IMG/VR virus record: IMGVR_UViG_3300025141_008441
Coordinates: 1-20,622 of that record
Strand: one strand, 5' to 3'
Origin: a virus
Length of the DNA stretch: 20,622 nt
Position numbers and translations under genes: made by a program. Below the pieces are notes generated by a model. It saw nothing but the letters and a program-made list of their open reading frames with translations. It searched no databases and was not told the origin of the DNA. Below are positions 3,829 to 20,622 of this stretch, one piece after another (positions within the stretch are counted from its first letter, which is position 1; each line of letters starts with the position of its first letter).

Positions 3829-5604
3829 CTACTTACCGCGTGATTTGGCTAATGCCATATCTGCCGCGCTCGCTCCGCGTTCGCCTTTTTTTCTCACTGT
3901 GTACTTCTTTTCTCCGCCCCAAGGCTCATAGTTTCCAAGCGCTCCGACTGCCCCCATAAATCTGTCATTTGCAAAACCCTTAAGCGCTTCTCCGTAAGCC
4001 GCGATTCGGCTACTATCCCCCTTAAGCCACGTAAAAATGCTCTCTGGAATTGATTCGTCTTTAGGAATAACTGATTCCAGAAATTGCCTCTCGAATTGCT
4101 GGAGAACTCCCATCCCGAAGAACTTGCCCTCACCATGAACCAGGGCTTCACGAAGTCCTTCTGCCGCTGCCCTCGCCTCGGACCCTGGCATCCATGCTCC
4201 GTCTGCACGGGTTGATTCAATATATTTATCAATAGCAACGGTAAGCATATTCGCTTTTTCGCGTTCTGCGAGGAGCAATTTCTTCTCTTCGGGATCTTGC
4301 TTCTCAAGCCCATGCTTTCCACCGACCCATCGGATTGGTTTCCCTTGCATATCGTTAATCCCGCTGTACTGCAGAGCCAGCGCTCTTTGAGCAGCTTGCT
4401 TGGCCTTATTGTTAAGGACCTCACCTTTTGCCTGGGCCTCAGCCGCAAGAGCAAAAGCTTTTTGCTGATTAATTTTACCGGATATCTGAAGTCCCTGCGC
4501 ATTTAGCTGCTGGGCGGCAACGCCCCACTCTGCGGCAGCCGTTGCCAAGGTTGCAACTTCATCGCTGTTGTACTTATCCATAAAGAACTTGTACTCATTC
4601 ATTACTCGCGTAGGCGCATCTCTTTTATGTTGAAACATTTCCTTTTGAGCCGCAATGTCGTTAGCGATAGCTTTATTATATAATTCAAGTGCCGGGTTTC
4701 TGCCTGTTCTTGTTGCTGCCCATGAGCCAGCCCCAACCGCTAGCGCAGCCAATATCTTTGACCCTGCATTTCCAAAAGCTCGACCAGGGTCGATAGCTTG
4801 GGCCTTCTCCAGTTTCTTTTTTGCTACGGCGGCCCGGCGAAGAACATTAGCGGCACCTTCGGGGGAGATGTCCCTTCTTCCTGCTTTAATGTCTTCGTTC
4901 AGCCTAAGCTCGTACTTCCAGTCTTTTATCTGTTCAATGGACGCGCCTGGGTACTGCCTGGTTAGCTTGGCGTCCGCCATATCTTCATCAAACTCGATAC
5001 CTGCTAATCTTTTCTGTTCCTGCGTATCTTGCCGAATTTGAAAATTTCTCTCAGCCCTTGTTAGCTGCTCGTCGCCAAATCGCTGCATAAGCTTTTTGGC
5101 CTCTACGTCGCCCCTTTGCTTTTCCAAATTACCCATGCGCCGATAAGCCGCAGCCGCTCGATGGTGCCCCCCCACCATTGGGACGTAAGGAAGATCGCTA
5201 CCGTCGTCGTCTGCGGCGGGTCTCGCCGGCACTGACACCCCTTGAACGGGAGGCGGGGGGCTGGCGAGTGCAGTTTCCGGGGGCGCAACTGGCTGTCCTA
5301 ACGGCCTCTCCCCTAGCTTGAAGTCTATACCGGTTCCTGTATCGTACGCCGCCTTGCCACCTTCTCCGTAGAAAGCCTGCTCTAAAGCCCCTGGCCTAGA
5401 TGCTCGGTCCTTAGCGATGGCTTCTTGGATAAGGGCGTCTTCCGCAGCCCATTTCTCTTCTTGCGTCAATTCCCCAGGCAATTGTTCGAAAGGGATGTAC
5501 CCTGCTGCAGCTTCCATAGATGCTATGGCCTCCTCCTCGGCCTCGGCCATAGCTTGCGCCTCTGCTTCGGCTAATTGCTGCGCTACTAATTGTTCATCGG
5601 CCAT
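3829..5604 (-). CDS. Putative internal virion / ejection protein with coiled coil, 591 aa
   Basis: The ATG follows the upstream TAA directly (TAAATG). Residues ~1-33 are an Ala/Glu/Gln helix (MADEQLVAQQLAEAEAQAMA); residues ~100-140 are Pro-rich linker. Residues ~150-280 are long charged helices (KKLMQRFGDEQLTRAERNFQ). A hydrophobic Gly/Ala helix lies at ~281-298 (GSKILAALAVGAGSWAAT) before a conserved-looking segment (NPALELYNKAIANDIAAQKE), then further helices. A helical, mostly soluble protein with one membrane-active-looking segment fits the ejection proteins of podoviruses, which cross the cell envelope ahead of the DNA. No enzyme domain is visible, including no lytic transglycosylase motif. 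The role comes from composition and from its place in the cluster. Confidence 0.65.
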   Translation of the reverse strand: MADEQLVAQQLAEAEAQAMAEAEEEAIASMEAAAGYIPFEQLPGELTQEEKWAAEDALIQEAIAKDRASRPGALEQAFYGEGGKAAYDTGTGIDFKLGERPLGQPVAPPETALASPPPPVQGVSVPARPAADDDGSDLPYVPMVGGHHRAAAAYRRMGNLEKQRGDVEAKKLMQRFGDEQLTRAERNFQIRQDTQEQKRLAGIEFDEDMADAKLTRQYPGASIEQIKDWKYELRLNEDIKAGRRDISPEGAANVLRRAAVAKKKLEKAQAIDPGRAFGNAGSKILAALAVGAGSWAATRTGRNPALELYNKAIANDIAAQKEMFQHKRDAPTRVMNEYKFFMDKYNSDEVATLATAAAEWGVAAQQLNAQGLQISGKINQQKAFALAAEAQAKGEVLNNKAKQAAQRALALQYSGINDMQGKPIRWVGGKHGLEKQDPEEKKLLLAEREKANMLTVAIDKYIESTRADGAWMPGSEARAAAEGLREALVHGEGKFFGMGVLQQFERQFLESVIPKDESIPESIFTWLKGDSSRIAAYGEALKGFANDRFMGAVGALGNYEPWGGEKKYTVRKKGERGASAADMALAKSRGK

Positions 5605-11365: not shown

Positions 11366-11821
11366 TCAATGCTCTGTCTCAGGCTGGGTTAAGACCTCAA
11401 CCTGCAATAGTTCCATGGCGCGGTCCCTAATCTCGTTATCGGACAGTTTGTCGATGGTGGAAATCTCCACCCTTGAAACGGCATCATCGAGCCCAAGGTA
11501 AAGGGTTCGTCTTGCCTGAATGTCGAGTAAGATTTTAGCGGTCTTAGTACACCACCCTTTTAAGAGGTGGTCTTTGGCTTGTTCCAGAAGCCGATCGAGC
11601 CGCATTAGCTCTTGCTCTTTAATCTGGTCCCGCGTCTCGGCGGTCATCTCTCGGCAACGCCTAAGCTCGTCTTCAACGAGCTTATACGCATACGCGGAAG
11701 AGATCCCCATGGTGTCGCCTATTTTATTGTAGCTAAACCCTTTTAGCCGCAATTCTAGTGCGACTTGAGAGTTCTTTATCTTCCTACAGGCTGCTTTACT
11801 GTTCTTATTCGTTTTCGCCAC
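11366..11821 (-). CDS. HTH plus coiled-coil protein, candidate terminase small subunit
   Basis: 151 aa starting at GTG (11821), which directly follows the adaptor's TAA; GGGGG about 5 nt upstream supports it. Residues ~17-48 form a sigma-region-4-like HTH (LELRLKGFSYNKIGDTMGIS, then SAYAYKLVEDEL). Residues ~55-110 are a long charged helix (RDQIKEQELMRLDRLLEQAK) followed by TKTAKILLDIQARRTLYLGL, a pattern shared with small terminase subunits and related phage HTH proteins, where the coiled-coil makes a ring. TerS normally binds pac or cos DNA and feeds it to TerL. Its place after the adaptor, far from terL, is unusual for TerS, so a late regulator is the main alternative. Confidence 0.7.
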   Translation of the reverse strand: MAKTNKNSKAACRKIKNSQVALELRLKGFSYNKIGDTMGISSAYAYKLVEDELRRCREMTAETRDQIKEQELMRLDRLLEQAKDHLLKGWCTKTAKILLDIQARRTLYLGLDDAVSRVEISTIDKLSDNEIRDRAMELLQVEVLTQPETEH

Positions 11822-12535: not shown

Positions 12536-13654
12536 TTAAACTGCTGGCATCTGAATTCGCACGTTGTAGATAGGTGCCTTGCAGCCCAAGTTTCCTCGGA
12601 ATGCTAGTCGCGCTTCTACTGAATCTGCCGTGGCAGAACGTAAAATTCGGTTACCATCAAGATTTAAGAACTTCACCGGCTCACCTAGAGTCGCTAAAAT
12701 CCACTTATCCATTTCAAGCATGAAGCCACTTTCGGCGGGGCACTTGTTTGCGGCTACGACGTTAATCGCGCCAGTATCACCCTGGATGGCTACAGAACGA
12801 AAACCAATGTCGGAGACTAGCCCTTTGTGGGTAGTCGCATTCACGGTTTGATAATTCTGTGAGTTATGAAGGTTTTGAATCAAGCTACGTTGCTGAACGT
12901 GGTTAATGAATGCAACATTCGGATTCCCACCAACTCGGGCAGAAAGAGAACCGGCAGTAATTAGCCCGTCCTCGATATCCGATGCACTTTGGTCAGTATA
13001 CTGACCATAAAGCCGTGAATCCACTGAACGGTTTACACCGAAAAAAGAATCGCCGCCGCCAGGCGCAGCGGAGGGAATCCAAGCGGAAAGCCCACTAATA
13101 CAAACGTTAGACCCCCCGTCTGCCGCATCACCCTGTGCGTAAATAAAGTCACCGTCAGTTGTCACGCTGCTGTACGCAGCGCCGACTGTAACCCTTCCCA
13201 GGCTTCGGTTAACGGCACTGACGACAAGCGTACCCGCTCTAAGGCTGCTTCCATCGGTAGCACTAAAAACCAGTACCTGGTTAACATCAAAGTTGGCAAT
13301 GTCTTCTTCTTCGCCAAGAGCCGCGAGAGTGGTACTCCCATCACTATCGGGATCGATGGCCCCTACCGTGCCAATGGAACCAGTACCGCTTCGGAAAAGC
13401 TGAGTCTCAATCGAGTTAGACAGAGAGTTCATCGCTCCATCAATGCTCGCCTTCAATGCCTGAAGGAAAGCCATTGCATCGCCTTTAGAAGCTTCCGCTG
13501 CTTCTGAGCCGACTTGTGCAATCGAGTAGTTTGAAACCCGAGTTAAGAGAAAGTCATCCACACTAACTTGGTTAGATGGTGCTGTTCCGGTTGTACCCTG
13601 AGCATTTCCGAAGCTTGCACTTCGGCCCTGCGGGTCACCGTAAACGTTAACAAT
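12536..13654 (-). CDS. Major capsid protein, exon 2 (residues 48-419)
   Basis: Begins at the codon ATT right after the intron's terminal G and runs 372 codons to TAA. The joined product is 419 aa: GGRNMP/IVNVYGDPQGRSASF at the junction, with no frame change. The VYGDPQGRS block, an Ala-rich helix (MAFLQALKASIDGAMNSLSN, the spine-helix region), a beta-rich middle (~residues 160-215), and the final RLAFRGNLGCKAPIYNVRIQ strand pattern fit an HK97-fold coat protein. A gene finder would start this part at the TTG at 13678, giving eight wrong residues (MRATVNTR) encoded by the intron's P9 region; there is no ribosome-binding site of note there. It forms the head shell around the scaffold. Confidence 0.9.
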   Translation of the reverse strand: MVNVYGDPQGRSASFGNAQGTTGTAPSNQVSVDDFLLTRVSNYSIAQVGSEAAEASKGDAMAFLQALKASIDGAMNSLSNSIETQLFRSGTGSIGTVGAIDPDSDGSTTLAALGEEEDIANFDVNQVLVFSATDGSSLRAGTLVVSAVNRSLGRVTVGAAYSSVTTDGDFIYAQGDAADGGSNVCISGLSAWIPSAAPGGGDSFFGVNRSVDSRLYGQYTDQSASDIEDGLITAGSLSARVGGNPNVAFINHVQQRSLIQNLHNSQNYQTVNATTHKGLVSDIGFRSVAIQGDTGAINVVAANKCPAESGFMLEMDKWILATLGEPVKFLNLDGNRILRSATADSVEARLAFRGNLGCKAPIYNVRIQMPAV

Positions 13655-13926
13655 CCGTGTATTCACCGTGGCTCGCAACTTCCACGACCGGGGGTTACAC
13701 CCCTGCTTTAGCTTTCACCAAAGAGTAGACCATATCTTAGCCCGTCGTAATGACTAGGGCTCCTCCCGCTTCCACCCGCTTGGGTGTACTCGCTTGCGCG
13801 ATGGTCGTTGAACGTTCCCCCTTGTGGGGGCTTCGCTGCTGATTGTCCTCGACTTGACGTTAGGAGTTTCCAGCAATTCAAGAGGTTTTTCATCGCAAAT
13901 TACTCTGCGTGAGCCCATTGTTGTTT
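13655..13926 (-). ncRNA. Group I intron (subgroup IA-like, no ORF) in the major capsid gene
   Basis: 272 nt. Pairings visible on the minus strand: P1, exon GCCU with GGGC (13916-13913); P2, CGCAGA with TTTGCG (loop GTAAT); P3, CCTCTTG (13885-13879) with CGGGAGG (13768-13762); P4, TGCTG (13875-13871) with CAGCA (13841-13837); P6, CCCCC/GGGGG with loop ACAA (13830-13817); P7, GACCA (13806-13802) with TGGTC (13732-13728); P7.1, TCGC-GCAA-GCGA; P7.2, CACCC-AAGC-GGGTG; P8, AGCCC with GGGCT, plus GTC/GAC inside; P9-type hairpins GGGGT-GTA-ACCCC and CGTGG/CCACG. The R- and S-like elements GTTCAACGACCA and AAGATATGGTC are very close to the group I consensus. P10 joins AACAAT (13922-13917) to exon-2 ATTGTT. 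The last intron base is G, as required. Confidence 0.93.
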
Positions 13927-14067
13927 AGGCATATTGCGACCACCGAAATCAGAACGCTTGGGAAGCATTGCCAATAAGGGTCGTCGAGAAAGAGTTGTTT
14001 TGGCTAGGTTGCTAGCAGAATAAATCTGCTTCAACGCTGCGTCGAAATTGGTAACTGTAGTTGCCAT
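13927..14067 (-). CDS. Major capsid protein, exon 1 (N-terminal 47 residues)
   Basis: ATG at 14067 with AAGGGA ~10 nt upstream. It encodes MATTVTNFDAALKQIYSASN and continues to ...LLAMLPKRSDFGGRNMP, the N-arm of an HK97-fold coat protein of the type whose next conserved block is VYGxPQGRS. That block is absent here; reading on gives only KQQWAHAE and a TAA (13902-13900), a 55-aa product. The missing part starts in exon 2, in frame, after the 272-nt intron. The exon ends in GCCU, which pairs with the intron guide GGGC and leaves the U-G pair expected at a group I 5' splice site. Exon length (141 nt) is a whole number of codons. Confidence 0.88.
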
Positions 14068-20212: not shown

Positions 20213-20622
20213 TTAAAGTTTGGGTAATTTCGAGGGCTCATACCTTAAAGCCCCCGGATGCTTTTTATTTAGTCTCTCACATACCCTGGTCCAGTGGGTA
20301 AACGCGATAGGCTTATTTGTGTTGGTGGCGTGGTCCACCAGTCGGCCAGCTACCTGAGCATGGCGAAAAGCCTGCTTCACAAATATATAGTGAATGAGGT
20401 TCTTTCTCCCGAAGCATCCCCAGCCAAAGATAAAACCCTCATCTTCAGGATCACAGGCAATGAAGAATCTTGTTTCCTTCCGGCCCTTGATGGCCTCGAC
20501 CCTTTCCCCCATAGCCCGGAAAAAATTTGAGGTAGGGACCCAAGGCATCGTTTCCTTAAAAGACCGCTTCCAGGAATCATAGATATAGTTCCAATCCCCG
20601 TCTACGGGGTCTCTGAGCTTGA
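20213..20622 (-). CDS. GNAT-like phage protein, 5' end cut by the window edge
   Basis: The reading frame is open from the right edge to a TAA at 20213, so this is the C-terminal ~136 residues; the ATG at 20548 is internal, because the codons before it (LRDPVDGDWNYIYDSW...) look like normal protein. The pattern resembles the small acetyltransferase-like (GNAT fold) proteins often found beside phage packaging genes: a stretch RFFIACDPEDEGFIFGWGCF for beta strands, then IHYIFVKQAFRHAQVAGRLV, where the CoA-binding loop R/Q-x-x-G-x-G/A would lie. Here that loop reads RHAQVA, so the usual central Gly is Gln and CoA binding may be weak or lost. The substrate is unknown. Its stop codon overlaps the ribosome-binding site of the next gene. 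The family call is by pattern only; the N-terminus is not visible. Confidence 0.6.
   Translation of the reverse strand, partial: KLRDPVDGDWNYIYDSWKRSFKETMPWVPTSNFFRAMGERVEAIKGRKETRFFIACDPEDEGFIFGWGCFGRKNLIHYIFVKQAFRHAQVAGRLVDHATNTNKPIAFTHWTRVCERLNKKHPGALRYEPSKLPKL

Follow-up and report, generated by a model that had tools for sequence, protein, structure and literature searches.

A group I intron without an endonuclease gene interrupts the major capsid protein gene of an uncultivated phage

The major capsid protein (MCP) gene of the virus studied here is broken into two parts by a short insert. This raises the questions of what the insert is, how a coat protein could be made across it and why such an element should sit in so heavily used a gene. 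The whole stretch of DNA that was analysed, a 20.6-kb virus record (20,622 nucleotides), is referred to as the window. Its head-gene cluster lies on the minus strand and includes the following features:

19521-17896, minus strand: large terminase, in the head-gene cluster
16891-15038, minus strand: portal, in the head-gene cluster, before the interrupted MCP gene (more virion genes come after the MCP)
13927..14067, minus strand: MCP exon 1, 47 codons, 141 nt, ending ...GGRNMP, its last base being the U of P1
13655..13926, minus strand: group I intron, 272 nt, without endonuclease gene (RF00028 match and exact gap in relatives)
12536..13654, minus strand: MCP exon 2, 372 codons plus stop, 1119 nt, starting IVNVYGDPQGRS... 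(PHROG 14242, SU10_MCP)

Two further minus-strand stretches were noted. A small protein encoded at 11366-11821, inside the virion-gene cluster, matches PHROG 645 (annotated RNase E), and the stretch at 20213-20620, upstream of the terminase, gave a weak, sub-cut-off match to GNAT acetyltransferases and is conserved in the phage of the relative L002.

We compared the window with Rfam, where the group I intron model RF00028 has a gathering score of 50. The match at 13936-13706 (minus strand) reached 72.9 bits (E 4.6e-17), covered the complete model (1-253) and was the only Rfam match across the 20.6 kb. The covariance-model check proposed in the preliminary description therefore came out in its favour, none of the sequence results it had named as refuting was encountered, and its borders were upheld, with parts of 47 and 372 codons remaining in frame across the insert: if the intron is taken out, the exons join into a continuous 419-aa protein, and the gap in the relatives' alignment falls at the same place. 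In that alignment an A is present at both junctions, which leaves an ambiguity of 1 nt; this is resolved by the group I rule of a U before the intron and a G at its end (final intron base 13655 = G). Read without splicing, the frame meets a stop 8 codons into the intron, i.e. after 55 codons.

The joined 419-aa protein matches the PHROG 14242 major head protein (E 6e-9) and the Pfam family SU10_MCP (26.6 bits versus a cut-off of 24.1). For the fold comparison a model of the intronless relative L003 was used, which is 99% identical (mean pLDDT 75). In Foldseek the capsid chains of phage SU10 ranked first for this model, and it aligned with the shell of cyanophage A-1(L) at Z 17.4 (rmsd 4.0, 276 residues) and with HK97 (1ohg) at Z 15.8 (rmsd 3.2, 228 residues). 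By both sequence and predicted fold, the product of the host gene is an HK97-fold MCP. The intron site lies between Pro47 and Ile48, in the conserved family motif FGGRN(M/L)PI..YG.PQGRS; residues 43-81 are low-confidence in the capsid model, which bears on placing the insertion within the fold. The search of annotated phages returned a single weak match to the MCP (26% identity) and that of prokaryote genomes none that would point to a host.

We found 12 close relatives in IMG/VR, two of which cover just the far end of the MCP gene. The gene is uninterrupted at the intron site in seven (L002, L003, L004, L005, L007, L008 and L011), and all seven align with the gap exactly at the insert. The intron is present in three (L006, L009 and L010). 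Rfam agrees with the alignments, giving a group I match in 3 of the 12 records (73.4 bits for the L009 copy). Identity to the window is 99.8% for L006 and 100% for L010 compared to 82-84% for L009, so the carriers fall into two distinct lineages, one of the window type and one represented by L009. In 50 further records with MCP relatives no group I intron was detected at E 0.001, and the matched MCP stretches are of intronless length. The MCP relative at L081 3001-4250 has stop codons in the matched stretch, from a frameshift or some other interruption, and no group I match. When the intron DNA was compared with annotated phages, partial core matches were obtained and none covered 80% of the query. 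The Rfam, PHROG and Pfam matches, the fold comparison, the empty sites and the covariation given below confirm a group I intron that interrupts the MCP gene at exactly these borders.

The relatives also bear on the possibility that an intron of another gene or phage was misjoined into the coat gene during assembly. Every sequence used is a metagenome contig, which leaves room for such an error. However, the intron occupies the same base in four contigs, including one with about 18% divergence, and the exons are in frame and matched by the P1 and P10 pairings listed below. An assembly artefact is already contradicted by these observations and we give it practically no weight.

The RNA features of the intron are as follows, with changes given relative to L089, a related intron in a distant phage:

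13913..13930, minus strand: P1, exon GCCU (13930-13927) with intron GGGC (13916-13913), U.G at the 5' splice site
13917..13922, minus strand: intron side of P10, AACAAU, perfect 6-bp complement of the exon 2 start AUUGUU (13654-13649)
13900..13902, minus strand: in-frame UAA between the P2 strands, ending unspliced translation ahead of the core
13879..13885, minus strand: P3 5' strand CCUCUUG, pairing with 13768-13762 CGGGAGG; two-sided changes in 4 of 7 pairs
13837..13875, minus strand: P4 (13875-13870/13842-13837) enclosing P5 (13865-13862/13849-13846)
13817..13830, minus strand: P6a hairpin CCCCC/GGGGG; one two-sided change
13802..13806, minus strand: P7 5' strand GACCA (guanosine-site helix), pairing with 13732-13728 UGGUC; GACUA/UAGUC in L089
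13773..13801, minus strand: P7.1 (13801-13790, UCGC/GCGA) and P7.2 (13786-13773, CACCC/GGGUG); three two-sided changes
13740..13760, minus strand: P8 hairpin GCCC..GUC/GAC GGGC (Rfam match, sequence)
13667..13723, minus strand: hairpins P9 (13723-13706), P9.1 (13703-13691) and P9.2 (13686-13667) (Rfam, pairing)

Because P1 and the perfect P10 fit the exons, both splice sites are fixed. All the group I helices reported earlier (P3, P4, P6, P7, P7.1, P7.2, P8 and P9) are indeed present, and the core helices consist of standard pairs throughout. The RNA also folds better than dinucleotide shuffles of it (z -2.7), of which 1 in 200 was as good. The presence of both P7.1 and P7.2 between P7 and P3 is typical of type IA, to which the window intron would accordingly belong.

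As the window-type copies differ at a single base, L089 was used to look for covariation. This 270-nt group I intron (IMG/VR 3300003690_002432, 4769-5038; Rfam 95.9 bits) interrupts the MCP gene of its phage. It has a related core, 87% alike to that of the window intron over 114 nt, it is likewise without an endonuclease gene, and it occupies the same conserved motif. Its site, however, is 12 nt upstream, between FRG and KNMP instead of between NMP and IVN, and each intron has its own guide sequence. Across 26 pairs in P3, P6a, P7, P7.1 and P7.2 we counted nine two-sided and zero one-sided changes, in what is a single comparison of hand-paired helices. At the level of sequence these nine changes are direct evidence that the structure of the intron RNA, P7 included, has been maintained.

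We consider it very probable that a mobile type IA group I intron is tolerated in the MCP gene and is spliced to give the 419-aa MCP. The intron would fold within the MCP transcript and bind guanosine at P7. Cleavage would then follow the U of P1, and exon 2, held by P10, would be joined to exon 1, yielding the normal coat protein. On unspliced message the ribosomes would meet the UAA soon after entering the intron and halt before they reach the catalytic core. That the 272-nt intron splices itself is what we infer from these features. It might instead be a degenerate intron that has lost the ability to splice, in which case the phages would have no full-length coat protein or the contigs would derive from dead genomes. 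Some of the terminal hairpins are short, which would fit such decay, and splicing is here read from the sequence. Against this, two lineages have an intact copy, two-sided changes relative to L089 preserve the core pairs, P1 and P10 fit the exons, both exons are open and conserved, and an MCP is required by any tailed phage. We therefore regard a decayed intron as very improbable.

The mobility of the element can be judged by comparing its two carrier lineages. Between the window and L009 the intron differs at 1 of 272 positions (intron base 233, with the P9.1 stem kept), whereas the exons differ at 39 of 170 positions (some upstream bases included) and at 223 of 1123, about 20%. A near-identical intron between diverged exons indicates that it moved after the two phages had parted. 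Judged from these copies, the intron has spread recently between lineages, independently of the MCP gene, and has reached at least two of them. At position -25 the two carriers have the same base, which is found in none of the seven intronless alleles; this is one such case among 1291 exon-side sites and hints that a short stretch of exon may have been carried along with the intron. We rejected a long co-conversion tract: beyond ~30 nt the intronless alleles are at least as close to L009 as the window is.

How the intron would move is suggested by what it lacks. The longest frame inside its 272 nt has 61 codons, and the profiles HNH, HNH_3, GIY-YIG and LAGLIDADG_3 gave zero matches in the window record or key relatives, the intron-bearing records all being incomplete. 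The window intron thus has no homing endonuclease of its own. An essentially complete relative of 37.7 kb, with a 98-bp end overlap, is without the intron, and a free-standing endonuclease may be encoded elsewhere in the genomes of the intron-bearing phages. For an intron that encodes no such enzyme, homing in trans (collaborative homing) or exchange during co-infection would be the most likely route of spread; our best guess is collaborative homing, with ordinary recombination as the alternative. In collaborative homing an endonuclease-less intron is paired with a free-standing endonuclease, as in cyanophage psbA (reviewed in PMC3984707). An ORF-less group I intron moving between phages is common to both systems, whereas the free-standing endonuclease described there was not found here in the records searched, so the parallel is a proposed one.

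The same observations bear on function. According to the preliminary description, the intron would place the most abundant virion protein under splicing control, and a regulatory intron would time or limit coat-protein synthesis through its splicing efficiency. In principle splicing does gate synthesis, as unspliced translation ends after 55 codons. However, seven closely related phages do without the intron, it passes between lineages almost unchanged, and related introns occupy many different genes. The claim of control is thus unsupported, and a regulatory role seems to us very unlikely. A mobile element that is tolerated in the coat gene fits the intronless sister phages and the horizontal spread better than a switch does.

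A search of IMG/VR with 20 bases from the core of the window intron gave 48 loci besides the window-type copies, corresponding to 38 distinct introns. This census is picked by intron sequence and not by gene; it is small and biased towards relatives of the window intron. MCP coding sequence flanks 13 of the 38 on at least one side:

MCP-flanked introns: L089, L092, L102, L103, L105, L106, L108, L113, L114, L115, L128, L130, L133

The MCP was found on both sides of the intron in L089, L115 and L133. For most of the other loci the match starts or stops well within the family profile, which is what one would expect with the remainder on the far side of the intron. The L130 match spans almost the whole profile, which makes the interruption less certain in that case. 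Rfam scored above the gathering score in 9 of the 12 MCP-flanked loci scanned; for L102, L108 and L133, which were below it, and for L092, which was outside the scan, the core motif is the basis for calling an intron. The MCP families beside the core-sharing introns are SU10, Gp23, P22 coat, crAss, Mu gpT and Phage_capsid_3, and other such introns are located in genes for terminase, ribonucleotide reductase and further products. With 13 of 38 introns beside MCP genes of several families, and two related endonuclease-less introns 12 nt apart in one motif, MCP genes could be a preferred, recurrent landing place for this type of intron in uncultivated phages, moved by a trans-acting enzyme; we hold this to be possible and rather doubtful. 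L113, L115 and L106 each have a closely spaced pair of group I introns within or next to the MCP gene. At L098 5508-6296 and L123 3189-3977 the frame downstream of the intron core is intein-like (start CVTGDSLITLVDGT, end HN) and precedes terminase-like sequence, so intron and intein may share one gene.

Judging by this small census, environmental phages seem to have introns in their capsid genes far more often than the literature on isolates would lead one to expect. This affects virus detection and gene calling, as an MCP in two parts can be overlooked or annotated as a pair of genes. The window and its relatives amount to a natural experiment: close relatives differ in whether they have the intron, the junctions are exact, and an intron that encodes no endonuclease has clearly been transferred horizontally. 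What splicing costs in the most heavily used virion gene, and how introns lacking an ORF move, can now be tested.

The earlier statement that phage introns lie mostly in DNA-metabolism, lysis and terminase genes is fair for the older literature, but introns in coat genes have already been described. They are known from LittleE, Tuc2009 and crAss-like phages, though not at the site of the window intron in close relatives. For Mycobacterium phage LittleE, both RT-PCR and the sequence of the protein demonstrated splicing of a capsid-gene intron (Pope et al. 2013, PMC3706429). Both introns interrupt an HK97-fold MCP gene, have close relatives without an intron and show a U before the intron and a G at its end. 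The LittleE intron is about 819 bp long with an endonuclease-like frame and differs in host group and site, whereas the window intron has 272 nt, no endonuclease and a predicted splicing reaction. A capsid-gene intron of the lactococcal phage Tuc2009 is cited in the same paper (PMC3706429), which also reports a 265 bp endonuclease-less intron, with splicing shown, in the minor tail protein gene of Mycobacterium phages BAKA and Optimus. These resemble the window intron in being small, endonuclease-less and in a virion structural gene, though that of the tail instead of the capsid. In Delta and Zeta crAss-like phages group I introns occur in MCP genes (PMC7886860). They are often several per gene and were recognised by endonuclease domains, and the MCP family differs from that of the window; like the window intron, they are MCP-gene group I introns found by sequence in uncultivated phages. 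Capsid-gene introns are a known kind of element, and in environmental phages apparently a common one.
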